From Gammaproteobacteria bacterium (GTDB lineage Bacteria > Pseudomonadota > Gammaproteobacteria > Enterobacterales > Kangiellaceae), in assembly GCA_013373375.1 (NCBI GenBank), contig JABXHY010000018.1, positions 1-43,112 of the forward strand: a DNA stretch of 43,112 bases. The letters are read 5' to 3'. Below the pieces are notes generated by a model. That model saw nothing but the letters and a program-made list of their open reading frames with translations. It did not search any database and was not told where the DNA came from. Each line of letters starts with the position of its first letter. Position 1 is the stretch's first letter. Below, in pieces: positions 13,662 to 41,013 of this stretch. Both the position numbers and the translations under genes were made by a program.

Positions 13662-15536
13662 TTACTGACTAACAGGTGCCCATGGCTTAAACGCATTAAC
13701 TGGGATATTAGGAACCTGTTGTAGCTCTGGTAAGTTATCAACTAACACATCTCGGAAGGTACGAGTTTGAACCAGATTGTAACCAAGCTCTGTGTACACT
13801 TCGGGACGGAAGTCATCGGTATAGAAACGATCGCTTAATAAGCGACGTGACGCCATTAATGTAAATACTTGGAAAGCTGTCTCACCAAAAGCGAAACCAC
13901 CTGGACGTACACCTTCTGCCATCATACCAACCATTAAGTCCATCTTCTCGATGTCACCACCATAGACTTGCTCTAACTTACTGACAGTTTCTAACTGATC
14001 GCTGGTTAGTGTGTCTGTTGGGAATCGTTTAAATAGATCTTCAAAGCTGTCGATAGGCTTCAAACGAATGCCACGTCGAAAATCATTGTAACGAGGTACT
14101 CCACGCTCACGGTCGCGCACGATATCTATGGTTGCGAGATCAAGGTGACCCACGAAAGGAATCGAAATCGACTGCATTTCTTTAGGATAGTTAAATAACG
14201 TTAACGCACCAGGATTAGCAACACCAAAGCTATAAGCGATGTTGTCAAGACCGTATTTCTTTACCACTCGTTTTGCTTTGTGGTCGCGAACTTTTTTCAA
14301 GTTAAGAGATTTTAATTCGCTATTGTCAGCAAGGCTTCTGATAGAGAACTCATCAGGCATTAGCTGGTGCATACGGTATACAGAAACGAACTCTTCGGTT
14401 AATGAGTAAGGAACACCGTAATCATCGGCTTCACCGCCAACGATACCGTTGATAGCTTTGTTACCCATTTTTAAAACATCTAGTTGAGCATCAGTGCCAA
14501 ACAAACTGCCAATAACACCAGCGTATGGAGCTACCTGTCCCAATATGTCTGAAAGAGCACCTTCTCCTAAGCCGTACCAGTTAGAGTACATACCTTGGAT
14601 GAGTACTGGATTATCAAGTAGAGCAGGTGTCCATTCAACGGTATGGATTTTTGCCATTAACGCTGAGTTAATCAAACGAGCTTTATCAAAAAGTTGCTGG
14701 TCGTTTAAGTCAGGATACTGTTGAGCAAGCAGGTCTGCAGTGCGATTGTGTTCGCGAACAAATACGGTGTGCATCAATGACAAACCAACCCACCAGTTGT
14801 TATTAAAGCCTGTTAATGGTTTGCCCATAAACGTTCTGGGTAATTGACCATCGTCAAGTTTAAGCTTGCCGCCGACAAACGTTCGTAAAGAATTTTGAGT
14901 GTCTTGATCACTGCCGTAGATTTGTGAGCCATCCCACCAGTGAGTAACTTTGTTACGATAGGTAACAACTTGATCCAACTCTGGATCGTAAGTGGTGTCT
15001 CTCTGCGTACGACGAATTTTCAAATACTTACCTTTGAAGTCAGGATCGTCTTTGGCAAGAGGAACTTTAATTGGATCGTGCTTATCGTTTTTGCCGTGAT
15101 CGAACCAGTCATGAATCATAAACTGTATCCATGCAGCTGCTAAAACGTTAATGCTCTCCGCTGGAATAAATTCGTCCCGGCTCATCAGAGCTAATGATAC
15201 TTCCCTAGGATTAGGCGATAATATCTCCTCGTCAGACACGTAAGCAGGTAAAGTTGCTGGGTCGATGTTTCGACCAAAGCGTTTATTGACCGATCCCCAG
15301 TCTGGCTGGTTTAAGTTGTTACACGTACCATCTGCCGTTCTGGCGGTTAGTGAGTCATCATTACAAGCAACGACTTCGAACTCTCTTTCAACATCGAATA
15401 AATTCTCGTGAAACAAAATTTCTCGTTCGACGGCTAGTACAATGAGAGCTAGTGATGGTGCAACAATCGGCCATACAACCCATTTGCTTTTAACTGCAAG
15501 CTGAAAATAAGCTTGCAAGGCAGCAAGAATATTCAT
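13662..15536 (-). CDS. Alpha-dioxygenase-like haem peroxidase family protein
   Basis: A member of the animal haem peroxidase/cyclooxygenase superfamily, closest in motifs to fatty-acid alpha-dioxygenases. Those enzymes insert O2 at C2 of fatty acids to give 2-hydroperoxy acids that decay to shortened aldehydes. Residues that fit are a distal histidine in QFMIHDW (His142), HWWDGSQIYGSD (199-210), REHNRTADL (261-269), and VYRMH (386-390). In the last, Tyr387 lies three residues before the proximal His390, the Tyr-x-x-His spacing of plant alpha-DOX. The length (624 aa) matches the family. A hydrophobic segment at 18-36 suggests membrane attachment. The ATG is preceded by GAAGGGG. A 10-bp palindrome lies about 150 bp upstream. 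A linoleate diol synthase-like activity is the alternative. Confidence 0.8.
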   Translation of the reverse strand: MNILAALQAYFQLAVKSKWVVWPIVAPSLALIVLAVEREILFHENLFDVEREFEVVACNDDSLTARTADGTCNNLNQPDWGSVNKRFGRNIDPATLPAYVSDEEILSPNPREVSLALMSRDEFIPAESINVLAAAWIQFMIHDWFDHGKNDKHDPIKVPLAKDDPDFKGKYLKIRRTQRDTTYDPELDQVVTYRNKVTHWWDGSQIYGSDQDTQNSLRTFVGGKLKLDDGQLPRTFMGKPLTGFNNNWWVGLSLMHTVFVREHNRTADLLAQQYPDLNDQQLFDKARLINSALMAKIHTVEWTPALLDNPVLIQGMYSNWYGLGEGALSDILGQVAPYAGVIGSLFGTDAQLDVLKMGNKAINGIVGGEADDYGVPYSLTEEFVSVYRMHQLMPDEFSIRSLADNSELKSLNLKKVRDHKAKRVVKKYGLDNIAYSFGVANPGALTLFNYPKEMQSISIPFVGHLDLATIDIVRDRERGVPRYNDFRRGIRLKPIDSFEDLFKRFPTDTLTSDQLETVSKLEQVYGGDIEKMDLMVGMMAEGVRPGGFAFGETAFQVFTLMASRRLLSDRFYTDDFRPEVYTELGYNLVQTRTFRDVLVDNLPELQQVPNIPVNAFKPWAPVSQ

Positions 15537-16883: not shown

Positions 16884-19133
<2,250 letters not shown>

Positions 19134-21680: not shown

Positions 21681-22766
21681 TTATCGATTAAAATAATGAT
21701 AAAGTGGAATTCGTCTTGCGCCGAAATTCCCACGAGTTTCACTAAACCGTCCTTCAACTTTTGAATTGCAGTATTCACAGTATCCATCATTAATATGCCA
21801 CTCTCCCAGTTCATACCAGTTTCGCTTAATCAAAAGTTTCTCGCAGTTCGAGCAATAAGTGCTACTTCCAACAGTGTCGTGCACATTTCCGGTGTAAACA
21901 TAATTTAAACCTGTCTTTTTTGCGATTTCACGAGCTTGACTTAGTGTGCTTGCAGGAGTAGGCGGCACATCTTGCATTTTCCAGTCTGGGTGAAAGGCAG
22001 TGAAATGGAGTGGAACATTTTCGCCAAGATGTGCTGCAACCCACTCACACAACAAGTGTATTTCTTTTTGGCTGTCGTTATGGCCTGGAATTAGTAATGT
22101 AGTTAACTCTAGCCAACAGTTAGTTTCTGAGTGGATATACAGAATTGTATCGAGCACAGATTCTAGTTCAGCGCCGCAAAGCTTTTTATAAAATTTAGTA
22201 TCAAACGATTTTAAATCGACATTTGCAGCATCCATGTAATGAAAGAACTTTTCTCTTGGCTTTTCACAAATATAACCAGCGGTGACGGCAATATTATTTA
22301 TATTGTCTTGACGACAAGCAATGGCAGTATCGACTGCATACTCTAAGAAGATAACAGGGTCGTTATAGGTGTAGGCTACACTTTTGCAGTTGTATTTTTT
22401 TGCGACTTGTGCGATTTGCTCCGGTAAGGCAGAAGATGCCAGGGTTTCCATTTCACGTGATTTGCTCATATCCCAGTTCTGACAGAATTTACACGCCAGA
22501 TTGCACCCGGCAGTACCAAAAGAAAGTACAGAAGTACCAGGGTAAAAATGGTTAAGTGGTTTCTTTTCTATTGGGTCTATGCAAAAGCCAGAGGATTTGC
22601 CATAGCTGAATAGTTTAATTTGATTATTTTCGCGGCCTCTCACGTAGCATAGCCCACGTTGTCCTTCACTTAGATTACAAAAACGCGGACATAGGTCGCA
22701 TTGGATTTTGTCTCGTCCAGAATCGTCCTCAACAAGGTGCCAGTAATCAGTAGAAACCGAACTCAT
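21681..22766 (-). CDS. amrS: AmmeMemoRadiSam system radical SAM enzyme
   Basis: A 361-residue radical SAM enzyme. The [4Fe-4S] ligands are Cys88, Cys92 and Cys95 in CNLACKFCQNWD, following the AdoMet-family FGTAGC start. It resembles pyruvate formate-lyase activating enzymes. An N-terminal cysteine cluster (Cys23, 26, 30, 40: CDLCPRFC...RGLC) and a C-terminal zinc-ribbon-like pair (CSNCEKL and CEYCNSK) are typical of this family. It is divergent from amrB-amrA, with about 140 bp between them, forming the three-component AMMECR1-Memo-radical SAM module. The substrate and product of the module are not established to my knowledge. Confidence 0.9.
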   Translation of the reverse strand: MSSVSTDYWHLVEDDSGRDKIQCDLCPRFCNLSEGQRGLCYVRGRENNQIKLFSYGKSSGFCIDPIEKKPLNHFYPGTSVLSFGTAGCNLACKFCQNWDMSKSREMETLASSALPEQIAQVAKKYNCKSVAYTYNDPVIFLEYAVDTAIACRQDNINNIAVTAGYICEKPREKFFHYMDAANVDLKSFDTKFYKKLCGAELESVLDTILYIHSETNCWLELTTLLIPGHNDSQKEIHLLCEWVAAHLGENVPLHFTAFHPDWKMQDVPPTPASTLSQAREIAKKTGLNYVYTGNVHDTVGSSTYCSNCEKLLIKRNWYELGEWHINDGYCEYCNSKVEGRFSETRGNFGARRIPLYHYFNR

Positions 22767-22910
22767 GGATTACTCTCAGTAACGGGTGTTAGCTCGCAAA
22801 TTTTAGTATAGGAGCGTATATTGGTTATATTGTAGTCAATGGTAAAGATTTCAAGTGGAATGTTGAACTGTAGACTTCAAGCTCTTTAAAACTGCTCGGA
22901 GGTGACGAAT

Positions 22911-23696
22911 ATGTTAAGCAGTCGACCCACTGCGGTTGCTGGCTTATTTTATCCAGACGACCCGCAAGAACTAACCGAAGCTGTTGAGAACTATATTGAA
23001 CAAGGGAAAGATAGTGACTTGCCGGATGTTAAAGCGCTAATTACTCCGCACGCAGGTTACATATACTCTGGCGCTATAGCAGGAAGTGCTTACAAAGCAC
23101 TCATTCATAGGAAAGAGCCGATAGAGCGCGTAATTTTATTTGGGCCGGCACATCGACTGGGGTTTAAAGGTGTCGCTGATAGCCAATGTGTCAGCTTTCG
23201 TTCGCCACTGGGAGAGATTTCGCTGGATAGAGAGACTCTTGACTCATTGGTTGAGCAACGATTGGTTAAAGCTTTTGCTCAATCGCATAGTGAAGAGCAT
23301 TGTTTAGAAGTTCAATTGCCTTTTTTGCTCAAATCGATAAGTAATAATTTTAAATTGATTCCATTACTAGTAGGAGATGAAACGTCCGATAAAGTTGCAA
23401 CATTACTCGAGCAAATTTGGATGCCAACAGATTTAATAGTCGTGAGTAGCGACCTAAGCCACTATTTACCCTATGAACAAGCTAACGAGCGAGATCAGCA
23501 AACTACAGAGTCTATTTGTCAGTTAGAAAAAAATATTAGTGGCTTTCAAGCTTGTGGTAGTCGGCCAATAGTTGGATTGAATATTTTTGCAGCAAAGAAA
23601 GGTTGGGAGGTTCGTTGCCTTGACAGAAGAAATTCGGGTGACACAGCGGGGGACAAACAAAGAGTTGTCGGTTATGGCGCTTATGCTTTGTTTTAG
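22911..23696 (+). CDS. amrB: AmmeMemoRadiSam system protein B (Memo family)
   Basis: A 261-residue Memo-family protein, related to extradiol dioxygenases and human MEMO1. Conserved histidines are in TPHAGY (His47), GPAHR (His81) and SDLSHY (His184), likely metal ligands, and SHSEEHCLEVQLPF contains the family's central motif. The C-terminus has the family signature SGDTAGDKQRVVGYGAY. The ATG at 22911 is chosen because GGAGG lies 8 nt upstream; a GTG at 22902 overlaps that site. It is followed 123 bp later by amrA on the same strand and is divergent from amrS. Confidence 0.9.
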   Translation: MLSSRPTAVAGLFYPDDPQELTEAVENYIEQGKDSDLPDVKALITPHAGYIYSGAIAGSAYKALIHRKEPIERVILFGPAHRLGFKGVADSQCVSFRSPLGEISLDRETLDSLVEQRLVKAFAQSHSEEHCLEVQLPFLLKSISNNFKLIPLLVGDETSDKVATLLEQIWMPTDLIVVSSDLSHYLPYEQANERDQQTTESICQLEKNISGFQACGSRPIVGLNIFAAKKGWEVRCLDRRNSGDTAGDKQRVVGYGAYALF

Positions 23697-23819
23697 TAAG
23701 GTATTAAACTAAGTTGTTTTTTGATTTTGAGTCAACCAGTTTAATTTTGAGTGCCTTATTGCCAAGGCTGTTAAACTCGAAATAAGAGTGAATATATAAA
23801 TTTTAAATAAGAGTTCATA

Positions 23820-24386
23820 ATGCAGCAACTCACACAACAGCAACAATCACATTTACTGATTATGGCAAGACAGTGTATTGAAAACTATCTTTCAAAAAGG
23901 ATTAGACCAATAATTGAATTCGACAACCTTGAAGAGTACTTAAAGGTTCCGGCGGCTAGCTTTGTAACTCTGAAAAGAAATCAACAATTACGAGGTTGTA
24001 TCGGAAATCTTGTGGCTTCTCGGCCACTTATTGAGGATATATTGAATAATTCAATTGCAGCGGCAACAGAAGATCCTCGTTTTGAGGCTGTGTCGCTACA
24101 AGAGCTTGAAAGTATAATAATTGGAATATCAATTTTAACTGATCCGGTACCGTTAGAAGTTGAGTCGGAAGATGAGTTGCTCAATATCATTCGTCCCAAT
24201 GTTGATGGCCTAATACTTACATTCAATAATCACAAAGCTACTTTTCTTCCTTCAGTTTGGGAAACCTTAAATAAGGCAACTCAATTTGTTTCACAGTTAA
24301 AAGTAAAAGCTGGATTGCCCCTGGACTTCTGGGATAAGGAAATGAGGTTTGAGATATACCAAACTATCTCTTTTTCAGAGTCCTAA
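23820..24386 (+). CDS. amrA: AmmeMemoRadiSam system protein A (AMMECR1 domain)
   Basis: A 188-residue AMMECR1-domain protein, the homologue of a human protein linked to Alport syndrome with midface hypoplasia. The family signature LRGCIG is at residues 57-62, followed by the conserved AAATEDPRF and, later, FLPSVWE. The cysteine in LRGCIG is a candidate reactive residue. It is on the same strand as amrB with a 123-bp gap. The only upstream signal is a weak AAGAG before the ATG. A possible alternating stem-loop and a signal peptidase gene follow. The cytoplasmic module probably modifies a small molecule or a protein; unknown. Confidence 0.9.
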   Translation: MQQLTQQQQSHLLIMARQCIENYLSKRIRPIIEFDNLEEYLKVPAASFVTLKRNQQLRGCIGNLVASRPLIEDILNNSIAAATEDPRFEAVSLQELESIIIGISILTDPVPLEVESEDELLNIIRPNVDGLILTFNNHKATFLPSVWETLNKATQFVSQLKVKAGLPLDFWDKEMRFEIYQTISFSES

Positions 24387-34649: not shown

Positions 34650-34674
34650 TCATTGTTATTAATCTATTAAAACA

Positions 34675-34711
34675 AAAAGCCATCTTCCTATGTACTAAGA
34701 AGATGGCTTTT
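34675..34711. terminator. Bidirectional rho-independent terminator
   Basis: AAAAGCCATCTTC and GAAGATGGCTTTT form a 13-bp stem with an 11-nt loop, flanked by A- and T-runs. It separates the convergent membrane-protein gene and the mesaconyl-CoA hydratase gene. Confidence 0.9.
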
Positions 34712-34753
34712 CAATATAGAGCAGGATTATCGGATGAACTTTTGAATGCAGAA

Positions 34754-35860
34754 TTATCTGGGAATTAACAAAGTGTAATCCAGCTTTAAAACCGGTTGAG
34801 TGTCTGTATCAACGGTGTAGTAGTCTTTTACTGTATCAGAATCGCAATTTTTAAATCCAGTTGTTTCAACACGAATCCAACCAATATCATCACGACCATC
34901 AAATACACCTTTATCAAGAATTTGAGTCGCACAACTAATGGTATCTCCTGCAAAACTAGGAGCTGTATGAGAACCTCCATTGATGGCCGCGAGCCAAAGC
35001 CCATTTGCCAATCCATTATGGCTGAGTGCCCGACAAATTGACATAACGTGCCCACCATAAACTAATGGCTCACCATGACGTGATGATCGCATCGCGTACC
35101 CATCGAAATGAACTTTAGCATTGTTTTGATAAAGGCGAGTTGCTAATGAATGGTCCGACGGATTAATCGTCATTCCGTCATGATGCAATACGACTTCTCC
35201 GGTTACATAGTCATCGTATTTATATGGTGCGCCACTCCAGGCTGTATCGAATGATTTAAATGACAATTCAGCAGGAATATGCTGCTCATTAATATTTGCC
35301 GTTGGTGAGAGATTGGGAATTGAGTCGATGCCGGTTGGTGCAGAGTGATTTTTCTTATGAACCATTACCCAGCGCTTCCAGGAAACAACCGGTTTTTGAT
35401 CTTGATTCAAAGCGGTTGAATGAACGTAAACAATCCCAGTTTTACCGTTTGAATTTTCTTTTAAGCCAATTACTTTGGATGATACGAATAAAGTATCACC
35501 CACATAACATGGATTTAAAAATTCACATTCAGCATACCCTAGGTTAGCAACTGCATTTAACGATATATCAGGAACGGTTTTACCAAACGCTATATGAAAA
35601 ACTAGAAAGTTATCAATAGGCGTTCGAGCAAAACCACACGCCATTGCTACTGGCTCTGCACAATATAAAACAAAACGGCTGCCTGTAAGGGCTGTATATA
35701 ACGCAACATCGCCATCAGTAATGGTTCGAGGTGTCGCATGGATCAACTGGTCATTAATTTCAAAGTCTTCGAAAAAATAACCACTAAAGTTTTTGTCGGA
35801 TAATTGTGTTTTTGGTAGTTCTGTTTTTGACAGTTCTGTTTTCGATAAATCGGCAGTCAT
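34754..35860 (-). CDS. Mesaconyl-CoA hydratase (beta-methylmalyl-CoA dehydratase)
   Basis: It reversibly converts mesaconyl-CoA and beta-methylmalyl-CoA. The 368-residue protein is a double hot-dog MaoC-type hydratase with the hallmarks of this family: HATPRT, GDVALYTAL, FGKTVPDISLNAVANLGY, IGLKENSNGKTG, and in the second half LATRLYQNNAKVHFD, YGGHVMSICRALSHNGLAN and AINGGSHTAPSFAGDT. The N-terminus is unusual: residues 5-20 hold three near copies of a SKTEL-type pentapeptide (15-bp DNA repeats) before the normal family start at about residue 24. It is the last gene of a four-gene operon; its start lies 2 bp beyond the preceding lyase stop, with the GGAG site inside that gene's last codons. 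Confidence 0.9.
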   Translation of the reverse strand: MTADLSKTELSKTELPKTQLSDKNFSGYFFEDFEINDQLIHATPRTITDGDVALYTALTGSRFVLYCAEPVAMACGFARTPIDNFLVFHIAFGKTVPDISLNAVANLGYAECEFLNPCYVGDTLFVSSKVIGLKENSNGKTGIVYVHSTALNQDQKPVVSWKRWVMVHKKNHSAPTGIDSIPNLSPTANINEQHIPAELSFKSFDTAWSGAPYKYDDYVTGEVVLHHDGMTINPSDHSLATRLYQNNAKVHFDGYAMRSSRHGEPLVYGGHVMSICRALSHNGLANGLWLAAINGGSHTAPSFAGDTISCATQILDKGVFDGRDDIGWIRVETTGFKNCDSDTVKDYYTVDTDTQPVLKLDYTLLIPR

Positions 35861-35862
35861 TG

Positions 35863-36771
35863 TTATTTCTCCGGACCACAGAGTTCACTTTGTCCAATTT
35901 TGTGCACCGTTTCGTAAACTGAAAGGACTCTTTCCGCCCATTCCGCCAGCGAAGGTTCAACCAAGCGATCATCAAGCACTGCCATTGAACGATCCGCTTT
36001 ATTTGCTTCTTCTATTGCTTCCAAAATCCGCTTCGCTTTGTTTATTTCATCTCGTTTTGGCGTGAATGCATCATTCGTGTAATTAAGCTGAACTGGATGA
36101 ATAACAGTTTTGCCATCAAAACCTAGGTCGCGAGCTTGACGACATGAGTACTCACAAGCTTCAATATTTTTTAGATCAAAGTGCGGGCCGTCAATGACAT
36201 ACTTTTTATAAGCTCGCGCTGCAAGAATGACTAATGAAAGACTGGTTAATAAACCTTGTCGATCTGGAGTTGGATTAAGTTTCAAAGCATTCGCTAGGTC
36301 TGTAGTACCCATAACGATAACTTCCAGTCGCGGGTTGGCAGCGATTTCTTTCGCATTTAATACACCAAGTGGGCTTTCAATATTGACCATAACTTTCAAG
36401 TGTTTGCCACCAAGCCGGTCAAGGTGATAAATCGCTTCTTCAAGCTCAGCAGCCGACTCAACTTTCGGAAATAGCACACCGTCGATATTGAGTTTACAAA
36501 CCGAAGCAAGATCGTCGAATCCCCAAGGTGAATCAAGAGAATTTACGCGCACGATTTTTTCTGAATGACCAAAATCCGGAGAAGAAAGTAAGTCGACTAA
36601 ATTACTTCGTGCTTGCTCTTTGAGTTGAGGTGGGACCGATTCTTGTTGATCAAAAATTATAGAGTCTGCATCTAAAGCACGTGCTTTTTCGATATGCCGA
36701 GTGATGTGCGCTGGCACATATAGCATCGTTCTACGTGGACGATAAGTTAATGGTAAGGTTGCTGCATTCAT
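35863..36771 (-). CDS. CitE/HpcH-type CoA-ester lyase (lyase A)
   Basis: A 302-residue TIM-barrel member of the HpcH/HpaI aldolase - citrate lyase beta family. It probably cleaves a beta-hydroxyacyl-CoA such as beta-methylmalyl-CoA or citramalyl-CoA into glyoxylate or pyruvate plus an acyl-CoA. Seen motifs: RRTMLYVPAH at the N-terminus, Arg in VRVNSLDSPWG, the Mg-binding Glu in VNIESPLG and Asp in MGTTDLANAL, and KTVIHPVQL. The usual DLED motif reads FDQQESVP here, a change at a normally conserved spot near the active site. The start overlaps the ligase stop by 4 bp (ATGA), and the hydratase follows 2 bp after its stop, so lyase, ligase and hydratase are translationally linked. Confidence 0.85.
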   Translation of the reverse strand: MNAATLPLTYRPRRTMLYVPAHITRHIEKARALDADSIIFDQQESVPPQLKEQARSNLVDLLSSPDFGHSEKIVRVNSLDSPWGFDDLASVCKLNIDGVLFPKVESAAELEEAIYHLDRLGGKHLKVMVNIESPLGVLNAKEIAANPRLEVIVMGTTDLANALKLNPTPDRQGLLTSLSLVILAARAYKKYVIDGPHFDLKNIEACEYSCRQARDLGFDGKTVIHPVQLNYTNDAFTPKRDEINKAKRILEAIEEANKADRSMAVLDDRLVEPSLAEWAERVLSVYETVHKIGQSELCGPEK

Positions 36772-38456
36772 GATGCCTGCTCCAAACTGATTTGTTTAAT
36801 AAGTTCCTTTCGAAGCACTTTGCCATTTTTTGTTCGCGGAAAGTCTTTCATAAAATGAACGATTTTAGGCGCTTTATATTTCGCTAAGTGCTCACTGCCG
36901 AAGTTCAGCAGTTCTTCTTCGCTAACATTGTTGTCGCTGTGTTGAATGACACAAATGGATACCAGTGTTTTATCTTTAGAAATCGTTTCACCTAGAGCAA
37001 CACAATCGGCCACTGCTGGATGAGTCTTCATGACTCGTTCGATTTCATGTGGTGATACCCGATACCCAAAGGTGTTGATGATGTCGTCTTTGCGTCCGAT
37101 AAACCAAATGTAACCTTGCTCATCAACTCGTGCATAGTCACCTGTTAGGAAGTAACCATTTTGTCTTGCTTTTTCAGTTTCTTCTGGCAATTTCCAGTAC
37201 TGAACAAATAAACCCGGATCGTCAAGGGGAATACAAATCATGCCTTCCTCACCAGCTGCAACGGGTTTAAAGTCTTCATCTAAAAGTTCAACATTATGGC
37301 CTGGTTGCGGGAAACCGGCTGCTCCTGGTTTGATGGGCTTTTCTTTGTATTGAGAAATGTAATAAGACAATTCAGACATGCCAATTGCTTCGTAAACATC
37401 TTGACCAAATCGTTCACGCCAAGCTAATAGCATTTCATCCGAAAGATGCTCACCTGCGCTCATACAGTGTCGCAAAGAAGGTACGTCAGACTTTCCGAGT
37501 TCTGTTTTTTGAATGATTTGTCGGTAGATAGTCGGAACACCAATAAAGATAGTGCAGCTATGTTTTTTGATCAGCGTTGGCCAAGTTGATGCATCGTTTG
37601 GACCTTCATAAACAACGACTGTTTTGCCGTGAAAAAGCGGATCCATTAAGGCTGAGCCCAACACATAGGTCCAGTTAAATTTTCCTGAATGAAGAATCCG
37701 ATCATCGCGATCAAAATCAAACCAATACTGTGCTGCAGGAAGTCGTCCGATCATTGCTCGATGAGCATGCAAAACACCTTTCGGAAACCCTGTCGTACCC
37801 GATGTGTAAACCAGATAAGCGGGATCATTAGCTGCAGTATCTCGACATTGAAATTCTGTGCGTTGGCATTTCAATTCTAAATCTAGATCGATTAATTGAA
37901 TGCCAGGCAAATTTGGCAGGTCTCTTAATTCACCTGTGCCGGTCAAAAATACTTGCTTCAGTTGCGGGCAACCTTCCAATGATTCTGCTAATTCAGGCCA
38001 CATAGATTTGTGAGTTACTAAAGCTTTAGCACCCGAGTCATTAGCGAGGTAAGCCACTTCATCCGCGGCTAACAGTGTTGACGTTGGAACTGCTACAGCA
38101 CCAAACTTAAGCGCGCCGAAAAAACTGATCGGATATTCTAATGAGTTAGGCAAGCGAATGAGTAAGCGCTCACCTAAGCTGAATTTAAGATTAGCTAACA
38201 GGTTTGCAAAAGCATTGGTCTGTTGGCGTAATGTTTCGTAACTCATTTCGAAAGTGCCACGATTAGCATCTTCCAAAATGAACGCAATTTTTTCGCCATT
38301 ACCAGCCGTTACATGTTGATCAATGCACGCTGAACCAATGTTGAAAGAATCCGGTACTTGCCAGCTTCCTTCCAATTTATTTTGTTCAGAATTTTCATGT
38401 ACCGATAAATATTGTGCAACTAAAGGATTCAGCGACTTAGGGTCTATTGCCGTCAT
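36768..38456 (-). CDS. AMP-forming acyl-CoA ligase
   Basis: A 562-residue ANL-superfamily acyl-CoA synthetase that activates a carboxylic acid with ATP and CoA. Motifs: P-loop YTSGTTGFPKGV, A5-like EAIGMSELSYY, TGDYARVDEQGY, the hinge GRKDDIINTFGYRVSPHEIE, and the C-terminal catalytic lysine in KNGKVLRKEL. It is closest in style to the benzoate-CoA ligase / short-chain acyl-CoA synthetase group. Given its neighbours, the substrate is predicted to be a C4/C5 dicarboxylate such as mesaconate, itaconate or citramalate, but the binding pocket cannot be read from sequence alone. The start lies 10 bp after the preceding lyase stop, with AAGGAG overlapping that stop codon. Confidence 0.85.
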   Translation of the reverse strand: MTAIDPKSLNPLVAQYLSVHENSEQNKLEGSWQVPDSFNIGSACIDQHVTAGNGEKIAFILEDANRGTFEMSYETLRQQTNAFANLLANLKFSLGERLLIRLPNSLEYPISFFGALKFGAVAVPTSTLLAADEVAYLANDSGAKALVTHKSMWPELAESLEGCPQLKQVFLTGTGELRDLPNLPGIQLIDLDLELKCQRTEFQCRDTAANDPAYLVYTSGTTGFPKGVLHAHRAMIGRLPAAQYWFDFDRDDRILHSGKFNWTYVLGSALMDPLFHGKTVVVYEGPNDASTWPTLIKKHSCTIFIGVPTIYRQIIQKTELGKSDVPSLRHCMSAGEHLSDEMLLAWRERFGQDVYEAIGMSELSYYISQYKEKPIKPGAAGFPQPGHNVELLDEDFKPVAAGEEGMICIPLDDPGLFVQYWKLPEETEKARQNGYFLTGDYARVDEQGYIWFIGRKDDIINTFGYRVSPHEIERVMKTHPAVADCVALGETISKDKTLVSICVIQHSDNNVSEEELLNFGSEHLAKYKAPKIVHFMKDFPRTKNGKVLRKELIKQISLEQAS

Positions 38457-38466
38457 GGTGATCTCC

Positions 38467-39588
38467 TTAGATTTTTCCGTAGGGCCAGTTTTCGCGAATA
38501 ACGTGTACTGGCAAACGTTTCAATACATCCATTGCAAAGGCTTTGTGATCGTCGCCTAAAGACTTTAATGCATAGGCGCGCAATAAAGTTTGCAGTGCTT
38601 TGCCGAACATAGGGGGATCCAGCATTTCGCCCTCAAAGCGAATGGCACCACCGAGTAATGCATCGGCATCAATGGCTGCCTGCAATATGTTGACGTTTCG
38701 TTGGATTTGCAATGGACTGGGAGTAAATGCAACTTTGCACAGATGAATGTGATAAGGATGAATAACCTGTTTACCCGTTAAGCCCATTTGAGCTTCTTCG
38801 ACTGCATGACGATGTACCACGTGAGAATTGTGATCGCCATGCAAATCAAGCCAGCGACGTACATCGTGTGGCTCAATAAAATTTTCTGGCATTGGCGTTT
38901 CGTTAATAAGTACTTCCACACCGCCAATGACTCCTTTACCGGCTATTCGAGCTTCAAGAAGCAAGTTTCTCAGGTAAGTTCGAAGTTCGTCGATCCAGCC
39001 TTCAGGAGTTAAGTGAATGGCCATGGCTTTGGAAAAGTCGTGAATGCCAAATACCACGTGAGTTACAGACGAATATTGCATTAAATCAGGAGCGAGTTTC
39101 AGCGATCTGGGGTGTTCGATAATCGGTTGGATCTCTATTTTATCGTTAACACCGACCAACCAAGCTGACAGATCTCGGATTTCCGCTGCACCGTAAACTT
39201 CACCAGCCTTAGCTAAAATAATGACATCGATGTGTTCTTTTACTGCTTTGATTAATTCGAGGTCTTTTTCGTATTCGGGTGTACGGAATGGATTGATACG
39301 CAGTGCAATTTGAAACTTTCGTTCGGGAAACTTAGGTAATTCTTGTCGCAATAACTCTCGACTCATTTCTTTTTGGCGGCAACCGTCTTCCAAATCAAAA
39401 AGAAGGGTGTGAGCGGGGCAGTGATGAGCGTGTTTTCTCATTCTCTCTGCGGCCTGCTCCATGGACTCATATTCGCCCTGTGCGGGATTATACTTAACGG
39501 GAGGGTAGTAAAGCTGTATACCTGGCCAGAAGCCTCCCAGCACTAGCTGTTCATCGACATCGTCGAGAAACGCGTACTCGTAGTTCAT
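38467..39588 (-). CDS. CitE/HpcH-type CoA-ester lyase (lyase B)
   Basis: A 373-residue HpcH/HpaI aldolase - citrate lyase family protein, longer than typical CitE (about 290) because of an N-terminal segment of about 60 residues (FWPGIQLYYPPVKYN) and a loop rich in His (HGDHNSHVVHRHAVEEAQ). Key residues are conserved: LLFDLEDGC, Arg in ALRINPFRT, Glu in PIIEHPRSL, Asp in FGIHDFSKAM, and KQVIHPYHI. It is the first gene of the four-gene operon, so it likely acts on the product of the ligase or on a related CoA ester. The minus-strand start is preceded by AGGACC. It is divergent from the third lyase across a 308-bp region. Confidence 0.8.
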   Translation of the reverse strand: MNYEYAFLDDVDEQLVLGGFWPGIQLYYPPVKYNPAQGEYESMEQAAERMRKHAHHCPAHTLLFDLEDGCRQKEMSRELLRQELPKFPERKFQIALRINPFRTPEYEKDLELIKAVKEHIDVIILAKAGEVYGAAEIRDLSAWLVGVNDKIEIQPIIEHPRSLKLAPDLMQYSSVTHVVFGIHDFSKAMAIHLTPEGWIDELRTYLRNLLLEARIAGKGVIGGVEVLINETPMPENFIEPHDVRRWLDLHGDHNSHVVHRHAVEEAQMGLTGKQVIHPYHIHLCKVAFTPSPLQIQRNVNILQAAIDADALLGGAIRFEGEMLDPPMFGKALQTLLRAYALKSLGDDHKAFAMDVLKRLPVHVIRENWPYGKI

Positions 39589-39689
39589 GATGTGGTCCTG
39601 TTGTGTACTGTGTTTACCTAATGGATAGCTACGCCAATTTTGGTCATGATTTGGTCTTATCGCTACCGAAAATGGTTATTTTGGTGATT

Positions 39690-39702
39690 ATTGCAGTGCA
39701 AT
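39690..39702. promoter_or_regulatory. Candidate operator 1 (ATTGCAGTGCAAT)
   Basis: A perfect palindrome with one central base in the divergent promoter region between lyases B and C. A near-identical copy starts 105 bp further on. Confidence 0.45.
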
Positions 39703-39794
39703 AGCACTTAACCATAGTTAAACGATCATTTCAATCACTTGTTTGAATTTTTCTTGCCAAGAAAATCGGTCTTTAGTATGGTTATGCACGTTGT

Positions 39795-39807
39795 ATTGCG
39801 GTGCAAA
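39795..39807. promoter_or_regulatory. Candidate operator 2 (ATTGCGGTGCAAA)
   Basis: Second copy of the palindrome, 2 mismatches from the first. The starts of the two sites are 105 bp apart, about ten helical turns, as is typical for paired sites bridged by one regulator. Confidence 0.45.
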
Positions 39808-39896
39808 AATAAGTCAATATAACCTAACTCCAATATAAAAAAGCGAAGATAGGCGCTATTTAGATTGGAAAATCAATAAGTTACAGGAGGTTGGCC

Positions 39897-40889
39897 ATGA
39901 GCCAAAAGGTGCACCCTAACGATGCCTTATTTGAGGGCGAAAAACCCTTTCCAGTGATCCCAAGTTGCGAGCATTTTGCAGGTAGCGAGAAGCTCATCCG
40001 CAAAGCACTGGAGATGCAAGATAAGATAGGTCCTGTTTTTGATATTACCTGCGACTGCGAAGACGGTGCTGCTGCAGGGAAAGAAGTCGAGCATGCCGAA
40101 ATGGTTGCTTCAGTACTTGGTTCTGATGCCAACAAACACAATATGGCTGGTGTCCGAATTCATGACTACTCGCATCCAGATTGGAAACAAGATATTGATA
40201 TTATTGTGCCGAAAATCGGTGAGCGAGTGGCTTATATCACGATTCCAAAAGCGACGGAAGCAGCTCAAGTAGCGGAAATGGTTCATTACATTCAAACCGT
40301 TGCTTCTGACAACAAAATCAGCCGTGAAATCCCCATTCATATTTTGATTGAAACCCATGGAGCGCTAAAAGACGTTTGGAAAATTGCCAAGCTGCCATGG
40401 ATTCAAGTTTTAGATTTCGGAATGATGGACTTTGTTTCTGGCCATCACGGCGCGATTCCAGCATCAGCAATGCGTTCTCCGGGTCAATTTGACCATCCGA
40501 TATTAGCTCGGGCAAAAACTGAAATGGTTGCAGCAGCTTTAGCCAATGGAATCATTCCTGCACATAATGTGACGCTGGATTTAAAAAATCCATATCAAAC
40601 TTATAAAGATGCAGAGCGAGCAAGAAACGAATTTGGTTTCTTGCGTATGTGGAGTATTTATCCGACGCAGATTTCTGCAATTATCGATGCAATGAAGCCC
40701 GATTATTCTGAAATCGAGGATGCGATTGGTATTTTAAGCGCTGCACAGGACGCTGAATGGGGGCCCATACAATTTAAAGGTGAACTCCATGATAGAGCGA
40801 CTTATCGTTACTATTGGGAATTATTGCAACGAGCTCACGTAACAGGACAAGCTTTGCCTGATGATGTAACCAAACGATTTTTTGAGTAA
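39897..40889 (+). CDS. CitE/HpcH-type CoA-ester lyase (lyase C)
   Basis: The ATG at 39897 is chosen because AGGAGG lies 6 nt upstream; a TTG at 39891 is too close. The 330-residue protein belongs to the HpcH/HpaI aldolase - citrate lyase family: FDITCDCEDGA, Arg in GVRIHDYS, Glu in HILIETHGAL, Asp in LDFGMMDFVSG, and WSIYPTQI in place of the usual IHPxQ. It is similar in role to malyl-CoA/beta-methylmalyl-CoA lyases. It is divergent from the four-gene operon and shares its promoter region, so the lyases are probably co-regulated. A strong terminator follows. Its specificity may differ from lyases A and B. Confidence 0.8.
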   Translation: MSQKVHPNDALFEGEKPFPVIPSCEHFAGSEKLIRKALEMQDKIGPVFDITCDCEDGAAAGKEVEHAEMVASVLGSDANKHNMAGVRIHDYSHPDWKQDIDIIVPKIGERVAYITIPKATEAAQVAEMVHYIQTVASDNKISREIPIHILIETHGALKDVWKIAKLPWIQVLDFGMMDFVSGHHGAIPASAMRSPGQFDHPILARAKTEMVAAALANGIIPAHNVTLDLKNPYQTYKDAERARNEFGFLRMWSIYPTQISAIIDAMKPDYSEIEDAIGILSAAQDAEWGPIQFKGELHDRATYRYYWELLQRAHVTGQALPDDVTKRFFE

Positions 40890-40930
40890 TTGATTTTGTA
40901 AAAGTCGGAAAAGCAAAACAACCAATTAAA

Positions 40931-40957
40931 GAAAAAGGCGCTATTTAGCGCCTTTTT
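40931..40957. terminator. Bidirectional rho-independent terminator
   Basis: AAAAAGGCGCT, loop ATTT, AGCGCCTTTTT: a 11-bp stem with A- and T-runs, about 45 bp after the lyase C stop and before the convergent tesB. Confidence 0.92.
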
Positions 40958-41013
40958 CTTTTGTTTAAACTAATAAAAGTCGTGTTAAAAAGTTAACATT
41001 ATTTTTTTTGCAC

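Follow-up and report, generated by a model that had tools for sequence, protein, structure and literature searches.

A conserved gene set for three CitE-type proteins, an acyl-CoA ligase and a predicted mesaconyl-CoA hydratase in Kangiellaceae: candidate genes for a citramalate cycle

Organization of the locus

The stretch of DNA analysed here (the window) covers positions 1–43,112 of contig JABXHY010000018.1 from a Gammaproteobacteria bacterium of the family Kangiellaceae (assembly GCA_013373375.1, 95.78% complete), and it carries five genes that may form the core of a citramalate cycle. Three of them encode proteins of the CitE type (LYA, LYB and LYC), one an AMP-forming acyl-coenzyme A (acyl-CoA) ligase (LIG) and one a predicted mesaconyl-CoA hydratase (MCH) (Table 1). 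The genome is Pleionea-like, its LYB being 96% identical to that of Pleionea sediminis. All five open reading frames (ORFs) are open over at least 302 codons. LYB, LIG, LYA and MCH follow each other in a minus-strand run (34754–39588) and LYC is transcribed divergently on the plus strand. LIG starts 10 bp past the end of LYB, LYA and LIG overlap by exactly 4 bp (36768–36771) and exactly 2 bp separate LYA from MCH; the gene number, overlap and gap given in the original prediction, which was made from the sequence alone, are thus exact. For LYC, the ATG at 39897, preceded by AGGAGG, was preferred over the TTG at 39891.

Table 1. Features of the five-gene locus and its flanks (window coordinates)
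Feature	Position	Strand	Assignment	Basis
MCH	34754..35860	-	predicted mesaconyl-C1-CoA hydratase (beta-methylmalyl-CoA dehydratase); last gene of the operon	PF19315; PDB 8hgn/4e3e
LYA	35863..36771	-	CitE superfamily, malyl-CoA-thioesterase type (lid Glu); probably malyl-CoA to malate	residues and tree
LIG	36768..38456	-	AMP-forming acyl-CoA ligase; probably mesaconate (or citramalate) CoA ligase	PF00501 and PF13193; linkage
LYB	38467..39588	-	deeply diverged CitE-type protein; candidate (S)-citramalate synthase / (S)-citramalyl-CoA lyase	residues, conservation, fold matches
Divergent intergenic region	39589..39896	.	should hold the promoters of both units	layout
LYC	39897..40889	+	CitE-type lyase of the 3QQW/3R4I family; probable beta-methylmalyl-CoA / malyl-CoA lyase	PDB 3qqw; residues
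Terminator-like hairpin (18 pairs and T run), 3′ of MCH	34673..34713	-		hairpin scan
Hairpin (15 pairs), between LYC and tesB	40928..40961	. (scan lists minus strand)		hairpin scan

The hydratase and the acyl-CoA ligase

MCH matches the MC_hydratase model (PF19315) with 57.6 bits, over the cut-off, and among solved structures it matches the beta-methylmalyl-CoA dehydratase 8hgn (E 8.2e-101) and 4e3e (E 8.4e-108). On these matches it is predicted to encode a mesaconyl-CoA hydratase, which agrees with the mesaconyl-CoA chemistry that had been read from it earlier. The protein also carries an N-terminal repeat-like extension (SKTELSKTELPKTQL, window 35785–35860), and its first 29 residues are unconserved among MCH relatives.

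LIG contains the AMP-binding domain PF00501 (241.6 bits) together with PF13193. It is related to benzoate-CoA ligases but falls under the NCBI cut-off for them (295.1 vs 375.25 bits), and its SGKFNW stretch, which is conserved in the family and aligned with the Lys of benzoate-type ligases, gives no hint of the substrate. LIG is probably a mesaconate (or citramalate) CoA ligase. No CoA-transferase was recognised by eye in the window; a genome-wide search for CoA-transferase family III was not made.

The three CitE-type proteins

The three matches to HpcH_HpaI (PF03328) found in the whole genome at E ≤ 0.001 all lie within this cluster, with 154.7 bits for LYA, 47.5 for LYC and 40.8 for LYB (cut-off 25). 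In a tree of 54 rows, built without the characterised Mcl1 and Ccl, they form three separate deep clades. The claim of three lyases in the original prediction calls for correction, as LYB and LYC keep the catalytic residues whereas LYA is probably not a carbon-carbon (C-C) lyase.

LYB is the most conserved gene of the set (66–96% identical across 80 loci, see below), and all six catalytic positions (Glu-Asp pair, Arg, two metal ligands, lid Asp) are intact in 81/81 rows. When its AlphaFold model, which is of low confidence (mean pLDDT 65.5), was compared with solved folds, the two best matches were (S)-citramalyl-CoA lyases with a malyl-CoA lyase close behind; the model supports a CitE fold and points to no substrate. 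LYB is a candidate (S)-citramalate synthase or (S)-citramalyl-CoA lyase.

In LYC the lid Asp is kept in 55 of 56 rows, with one gap, and the other five catalytic positions in all 56. It matches PDB entry 3qqw with E 8.1e-157; 3QQW and 3R4I were deposited as (putative) citrate lyases. A role in the cleavage of beta-methylmalyl-CoA is suggested because LYC and MCH relatives are paired elsewhere: they adjoin each other on plasmids of Sphingobium and of Cupriavidus oxalaticus, in the latter beside a CoA-transferase, an MmgE/PrpD protein, an acyl-CoA dehydrogenase and a tripartite tricarboxylate transporter protein. LYC is a probable beta-methylmalyl-CoA / malyl-CoA lyase.

In LYA the lid Asp is replaced by Glu in 57 of 58 rows and by Gln in the remaining one. 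Of the Glu-Asp pair, the first residue is never acidic, being Q, G or H in all 58 rows, and the second is acidic (E or D) in 47; each of the two metal ligands is retained in 55 rows and the Arg in all. A lid Glu is described as the mark of the Rhodobacter sphaeroides malyl-CoA thioesterase group, and the Glu-Asp pair as conserved throughout the CitE superfamily (PMC3832036). LYA groups with lid-Glu proteins of Ruegeria, Methylobacterium and Deinococcus (support 99/94; two of them have long branches), and the relative listed first for it in a plasmid collection, with 40.1% identity, is a CoA ester lyase of Ruegeria encoded near a MaoC dehydratase and sdhC-A. We take this Ruegeria protein to be the roseobacter Mcl2. 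LYA itself was called thioesterase-like and not filed as Mcl2 because the lid Glu of Mcl2 is present but the Glu-Asp pair is not kept; it is probably a malyl-CoA-thioesterase-type paralogue. Neither an MCH-LYC nor an MCH-LYA pair was seen around the LYA-like or LYC-like proteins of Deinococcus, Haloarcula, Azoarcus and Variovorax.

Conservation of the gene set

A non-exhaustive scan of 84,980 species genomes, seeded with a LYB pattern, found 124 relatives, and the 80 best loci were analysed further; many of these are cut by contig ends, so that locus counts are lower bounds, and one (L039), GC-rich and with wrong-strand ORFs, was poorly read. LYB and LIG are adjacent in all 80 loci and the full five-gene set lies within one locus in 57, with the divergent layout of the two units kept among related loci. 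The gene set is conserved and co-inherited beyond chance. The single functional unit read from the sequence alone is thereby supported, and the outcomes named beforehand as damaging were not encountered: LYB and LYC are CitE-type, the ligase stays under the benzoate-CoA ligase cut-off and co-occurrence is conserved.

In 42 of the 80 loci LIG has a class I fumarase at a distance of at most 1.5 kb. Other neighbours are a GntR regulator (39), malic enzyme (34), succinate dehydrogenase (30) and aconitase B (16), and prpB occurs in 7 loci, in every case (7/7) within 1.5 kb of LYC. Going by record titles, the hosts are relatives of Pleionea, Aliikangiella and Kangiella, Thalassotalea/Thalassomonas, Methylophaga, Methylophilaceae, Gallionellales, other betaproteobacteria and one metagenome-assembled genome (MAG) titled Lysobacter. 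In one Methylophaga locus (L072) the order is prpD prpC prpB LYC MCH LYA / gntR malic enzyme LYB LIG, followed by a PPSR-like gene and a phosphoenolpyruvate (PEP) synthase, these last two named by eye; between them, the Methylophaga and Methylotenera loci contribute malic enzyme, PEP synthase, succinate dehydrogenase, aconitase and prpBCD. In a Kangiella single-cell genome (L014:10178-11745) the LIG match comes in two overlapping pieces, a possible frameshift or assembly error.

Genome-wide searches covered 47 LYB-bearing genomes, namely our own genome and 46 of the 80 hosts, which are related to each other and were picked by LYB. LYA homologues are present in 47/47 (44–100% identity); they were counted in place of MCH, for which PF19315 is too broad, some matches falling in 680-aa frames. 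The set is kept even in assemblies of ~1.1–1.7 Mb, some of them perhaps incomplete.

This last observation bears on the original reading of the genes as a dedicated route for the breakdown of C5 dicarboxylates from outside (mesaconate, citramalate or itaconate). LYB, LIG and the fumarase would indeed be enough to degrade mesaconate, and the Cupriavidus oxalaticus neighbourhood described above resembles a reported methylsuccinate cluster (PMC12290011). Retention in such small assemblies argues against it. So does the outcome of inspecting the neighbours of the set by eye, both in the window and at four loci (L005, L043, L072, L081), where no C5-acid transporter was recognised; in L043 a sulfate-type ABC transporter lies beyond LIG. 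Itaconate degradation (Ict/Ich/Ccl) was rejected on its equivalog models, which stay far under cut-off: MCH reaches 106.4 of 340 bits for Ich and, for Ccl (cut-off 375), LYA reaches 143.3, LYB 49 and LYC 42.7. We consider this route improbable.

Class I fumarase and methylcitrate genes

A class I fumarase (PF05681) was found in 46 of the 47 genomes, and our own (G000:C41:15306-16127) is over the cut-offs of TIGR00722 and TIGR00723. Class I fumarases are reported to act also as mesaconases, on mesaconate/(S)-citramalate (PMC4682846), and (S)-citramalate is the enantiomer that a CitE-type enzyme would be expected to give. At the gene level this fumarase is a mesaconase candidate.

prpB is over cut-off in 45 of the 47 genomes. 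Its distance from LYA is 5 kb or less in 27 of them; 11 others have it within 3 kb of the class I fumarase, and in the remaining 7 it is near neither. On another contig of our own genome, the fumarase, prpB, prpC and a PrpD-like gene form an operon, with prpB and prpC over cut-off. In the betaproteobacterial genomes G067 and G060, LYA, MCH, LYC, prpB and prpC make up one block and LYB, LIG and the fumarase stand together elsewhere on the chromosome. The fumarase thus accompanies LIG in some hosts and prpBC in others. Two arrangements join the same parts, as a shared pathway predicts, and we count this fumarase and prpB/prpC, which lie beyond the window, as partners of the five-gene set. The return of propionyl-CoA to pyruvate and C4 units is predicted from these genes to follow the methylcitrate, not the methylmalonyl-CoA, route. 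prpD was rejected as a marker in the own family, where 18 of 40 genomes have a match and the own match is weak; a Kangiella locus (L126) has acnD and, by eye, a PrpF-like ORF.

In two MAGs titled Candidatus Methylopumilus (L051 and L056, in G068 and G070) prpB is over cut-off and lies at most 5 kb from LYA. By contrast, none of the Methylopumilus strains studied in PMC6794327 is reported to have the methylcitric acid pathway. For most Methylotenera the methylcitrate cycle is recorded (PMC11978286).

The same linkage to prpBCD, and the label ‘prpE’ given to the ligase in PMC4109929, could also mean that the cluster handles propionate only, LIG being a propionyl-CoA synthetase that feeds the methylcitrate cycle and the CitE proteins repair or side enzymes. 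LIG, however, pairs with LYB in 80/80 loci, and in the two-block genomes (G067, G060) prpB goes with LYC-MCH-LYA and not with LIG; MCH, LYB and the class I fumarase would be left unexplained. We give this reading a low probability.

Absence of alternative routes

A true isocitrate lyase (ICL) was found in 0 of the 47 genomes, as judged from the pattern of PF00463 matches: all are pieces of ~85–110 positions with at most 67.7 bits, at genes also matching the PrpB model. For comparison, 281 genomes of the class, at least 95% complete, were sampled, with a true ICL defined by at least two pieces and a best E ≤ 1e-17. Any match was present in 142/281 and a true ICL in 95/281. Some LYB match was present in 57/281 and LYB orthologues (at least 568 bits; next match 37) in 5/281, our own genome included. 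Malate synthase is absent from 35 of the 47 LYB-bearing genomes, among them our own, and over cut-off in 12, and crotonyl-CoA reductase (Ccr, TIGR01751) is over cut-off in 0/47 (best 100.2 vs 378.55 bits; weak matches in 43/47). Ccr, noted from the start as missing from the window, is likewise not over cut-off in the whole genome or in its relatives. On these counts the glyoxylate cycle and the ethylmalonyl-CoA pathway were both rejected, and Methylophilaceae have been reported to be without the glyoxylate shunt and the ethylmalonyl-CoA pathway (PMC6794327).

Malate synthase in open frames of 534–584 aa, without a true ICL, occurs in eleven of the genomes (G056, G058–G060, G064, G066, G067, G071, G073, G075, G081), ten of them titled Burkholderiales, Betaproteobacteria or Rhodocyclaceae and one Lysobacter. 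Because they have malate synthase without a true ICL, their glyoxylate must come from elsewhere, perhaps from the pathway considered here.

A candidate citramalate cycle

Taken together, we consider it somewhat better than an even chance that the five genes, the class I fumarase and prpB/prpC constitute a citramalate cycle that replaces the glyoxylate bypass. LYB would condense acetyl-CoA and pyruvate to (S)-citramalyl-CoA/(S)-citramalate, the fumarase acting as mesaconase would convert citramalate to mesaconate, and LIG would activate this to mesaconyl-C1-CoA at the cost of ATP to AMP. MCH would hydrate mesaconyl-C1-CoA to beta-methylmalyl-CoA and LYC would cleave the latter to propionyl-CoA and glyoxylate. 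In a second role, LYC may join glyoxylate and acetyl-CoA to malyl-CoA, which LYA would hydrolyse to malate. The enzymes from PrpC to PrpB would turn propionyl-CoA and oxaloacetate into succinate and regenerate pyruvate for LYB. The net reaction would be 2 acetyl-CoA + oxaloacetate to malate + succinate, which equals that of the glyoxylate cycle. We infer all substrate specificities and the direction of flux in this scheme from sequence and gene linkage; as for its end points, pyruvate and acetyl-CoA on one side and propionyl-CoA and glyoxylate on the other, we judge the original prediction to have been right.

Direction is the main doubt, since cleavage of citramalyl-CoA is easier than its synthesis. 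In a reverse route, LYC would condense propionyl-CoA and glyoxylate to methylmalyl-CoA, MCH would dehydrate it to mesaconyl-CoA, LYA as thioesterase would release mesaconate, the class I fumarase would form (S)-citramalate, LIG would activate it to citramalyl-CoA and LYB would split this to acetyl-CoA and pyruvate. This would amount to an assimilation of glyoxylate and propionate on the pattern of the 3-hydroxypropionate bi-cycle's second half, a thioesterase and a ligase replacing the CoA-transferase. It has a role for every gene, it is consistent with the linkage of fumarase, LIG and LYB, and it takes citramalyl-CoA in the easy direction (PMC3832036) and Mch in the direction of dehydration, which that enzyme catalyses better (PMC5592240); the conversion of propionyl-CoA and glyoxylate (from malate) to acetyl-CoA and pyruvate was also considered by the authors on Arcobacter (PMC2147049). 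Yet the Mch equilibrium favours methylmalyl-CoA (PMC5592240), prpB/prpC beside LYC-MCH-LYA would compete for propionyl-CoA, and the usual source of glyoxylate is lacking (ICL 0/47 as read; glycolate, glycine oxidation and other sources were not searched). The reverse route is in our estimate unlikely, though it deserves to be kept in view. The direction of acetyl-CoA assimilation is favoured because ICL is missing and prpBC are linked to LYC-MCH-LYA, and the position of the Mch equilibrium also speaks for it (PMC5592240).

Several points nevertheless weigh against a citramalate cycle running in this direction. Mch catalyses dehydration better than hydration (PMC5592240). Synthesis of citramalyl-CoA by the Chloroflexus lyase was reported to be seen only when pyruvate was in excess, and malyl-CoA but not citramalyl-CoA is hydrolysed by the CitE-type malate synthase of haloarchaea (PMC3832036). 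Because citramalyl-CoA synthesis is hard and the haloarchaeal enzyme does not hydrolyse citramalyl-CoA, LYB would need a new coupled hydrolysis, for which PMC3832036 offers no clear precedent, or would run in reverse. Arcobacter butzleri, which bears a published cluster of this kind (see below), is reported not to grow on acetate or propionate (PMC2147049). As to the single proteins, the pair loss in LYA exceeds that of its Ruegeria relative, so that LYA could be inactive or regulatory, and the LYC relatives of Azoarcus and Variovorax are not accompanied by MCH. Ribulose monophosphate (RuMP) methylotrophs should not need acetyl-CoA anaplerosis. Fumarase I and prpB are both lacking in G051, and prpB in G066. 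The own PrpD-like protein, encoded next to prpC (L124:11034-12530), shares 28% identity with the PrpD of Methylophaga and scores 202.1 bits, where the PrpD cut-off is 458; its substrate may be a different one, for instance methylsuccinate (cf. PMC12290011). Finally, the absence of ICL rests on the reading of matches, the raw tally being 45/47 over the 26-bit Pfam cut-off, and the 47 genomes are mutually related and chosen by LYB. In the class sample the contrast is not significant (0/5 LYB genomes vs 95/276; Fisher p = 0.17). In the genus of Thalassotalea L019 the absence is not attributable to the set, because all 15 of its 15 genomes, two of them with known LYB status, are without a true ICL.

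A wider claim can be made, namely that the complete cycle, with an AMP-forming mesaconate ligase, a FumI mesaconase, a CitE-fold (S)-citramalate synthase, a malate synthase split into lyase and thioesterase, and a methylcitrate return, is a working route of acetyl-CoA assimilation in Kangiella/Pleionea relatives, Methylophilaceae, Methylophaga, Gallionellales and many other betaproteobacteria without a glyoxylate bypass, or a route of oxidation in those Methylophilaceae that lack 2-oxoglutarate dehydrogenase. We hold this more tentatively, at a little under an even chance.

A citramalate cycle was proposed decades ago for the use of acetate without isocitrate lyase and is not known to run on any identified gene set. 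The conserved linked set has a candidate for each step (for the PrpD step, in our own genome, by a distant relative only), in genomes without ICL and Ccr and mostly without malate synthase. If the wider claim is true, it would settle the existence of the citramalate cycle and provide the first one with identified genes. It would also give the ‘methylcitrate cluster’ of obligate methylotrophs its function and explain its strong expression (PMC3728764).

Comparison with known systems

The pathway idea is not new, as it is in print for Arcobacter butzleri, where the citramalate cycle and the 3-hydroxypropionate cycle were named in 2007 for ab1917-ab1921 (PMC2147049). Like our set, that cluster comprises CitE-like proteins (two there), an acyl-CoA synthetase, a class I fumarase and a protein proposed to hydrate mesaconyl-CoA; prpB, prpC, acnD and prpF lie elsewhere in the genome. 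Compared by description, it differs in that its synthetase is fused to a CitE domain, whereas here the synthetase and the CitE protein are separate genes with a 4-bp overlap; its fumarase is in the cluster and ours is with prpBC, and one CitE protein is thioesterase-like here. Our analysis adds that the set co-occurs genome-wide with the class I fumarase and prpB, that the glyoxylate enzymes are missing and that LYA has residues of the thioesterase type.

In Methylophilaceae, the genes listed as ‘methylcitric acid cycle genes’ are prpCBD, cyl1, maoC, cyl2, gntR, mdh, sdhABCD, cyl3, prpE, fum and can (PMC4109929). By gene order this list holds the same five families, cyl1 being LYC, maoC MCH, cyl2 LYA, cyl3 LYB and prpE LIG; gntR, malic enzyme, sdh and prp genes stand beside the set there, unlike in our window. 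The metabolite processed by the cluster was called unknown, and the cluster was reported as highly expressed in situ while RuMP genes fall (PMC3728764). In an OM43 strain, a HpcH/HpaI aldolase (NB46_00665) and a CoA ligase (NB46_00666) rose about ten-fold from nutrient-deplete medium to dissolved organic matter, from 101 to 1,055 and from 104 to 1,045, respectively (PMC5120137); going by gene order, these would be LYB and LIG.

The citramalate cycle described for Rhodospirillum rubrum has the same steps as the one proposed here, from acetyl-CoA and pyruvate through citramalate, mesaconate, mesaconyl-CoA and methylmalyl-CoA to glyoxylate and propionyl-CoA, but uses a CoA-transferase and a methylmalonyl-CoA return leg where ours would have an AMP-forming ligase and a methylcitrate return leg (PMC8307300). 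Acetate in R. rubrum is reported to pass mainly through the ethylmalonyl-CoA pathway, some citramalate-cycle enzymes being described as not identified (PMC8490811). The lower half of the ethylmalonyl-CoA pathway (Mch, Mcl1, Mcl2) shares with our set MCH and a malyl-CoA-thioesterase-type protein, which in Ruegeria lie near each other beside sdh; it differs in that Ccr is not over cut-off here and that LYC belongs to a different CitE branch, Mcl1 itself being absent from the tree. The haloarchaeal methylaspartate cycle shares with the proposed cycle mesaconate activation, Mch, methylmalyl-CoA cleavage and malate as product, but, unlike here, its mesaconate comes from glutamate and is activated by a CoA-transferase (PMC5592240). 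Our literature search, with most subscription papers outside its reach, found no paper tying these genes to the absence of ICL or testing them.

Other features of the window

Nine terminator-like sites were found in the region against 6.1 expected, and the hairpins 3′ of MCH and of LYC have the longest stems. The promoter scan of the region gave 8 sigma-70-like matches vs 13.8 expected, at or below chance; one of them falls in the intergenic region, on the plus strand (39754–39782). tesB, beyond the hairpin 3′ of LYC, was rejected as a member of the unit, being a neighbour in 4 of the 80 loci only (L004, L005, L006, L055), all Pleionea-like.

Two other groups of genes were noticed in the window. 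At 13662–15536 and 16884–19088, a large haem-peroxidase-like protein and a nearby catalase-peroxidase were named by eye from their translations. At 21681–24386, radical SAM, MEMO-type and AMMECR1-type proteins are adjacent and resemble the AmmeMemoRadiSam gene triad.

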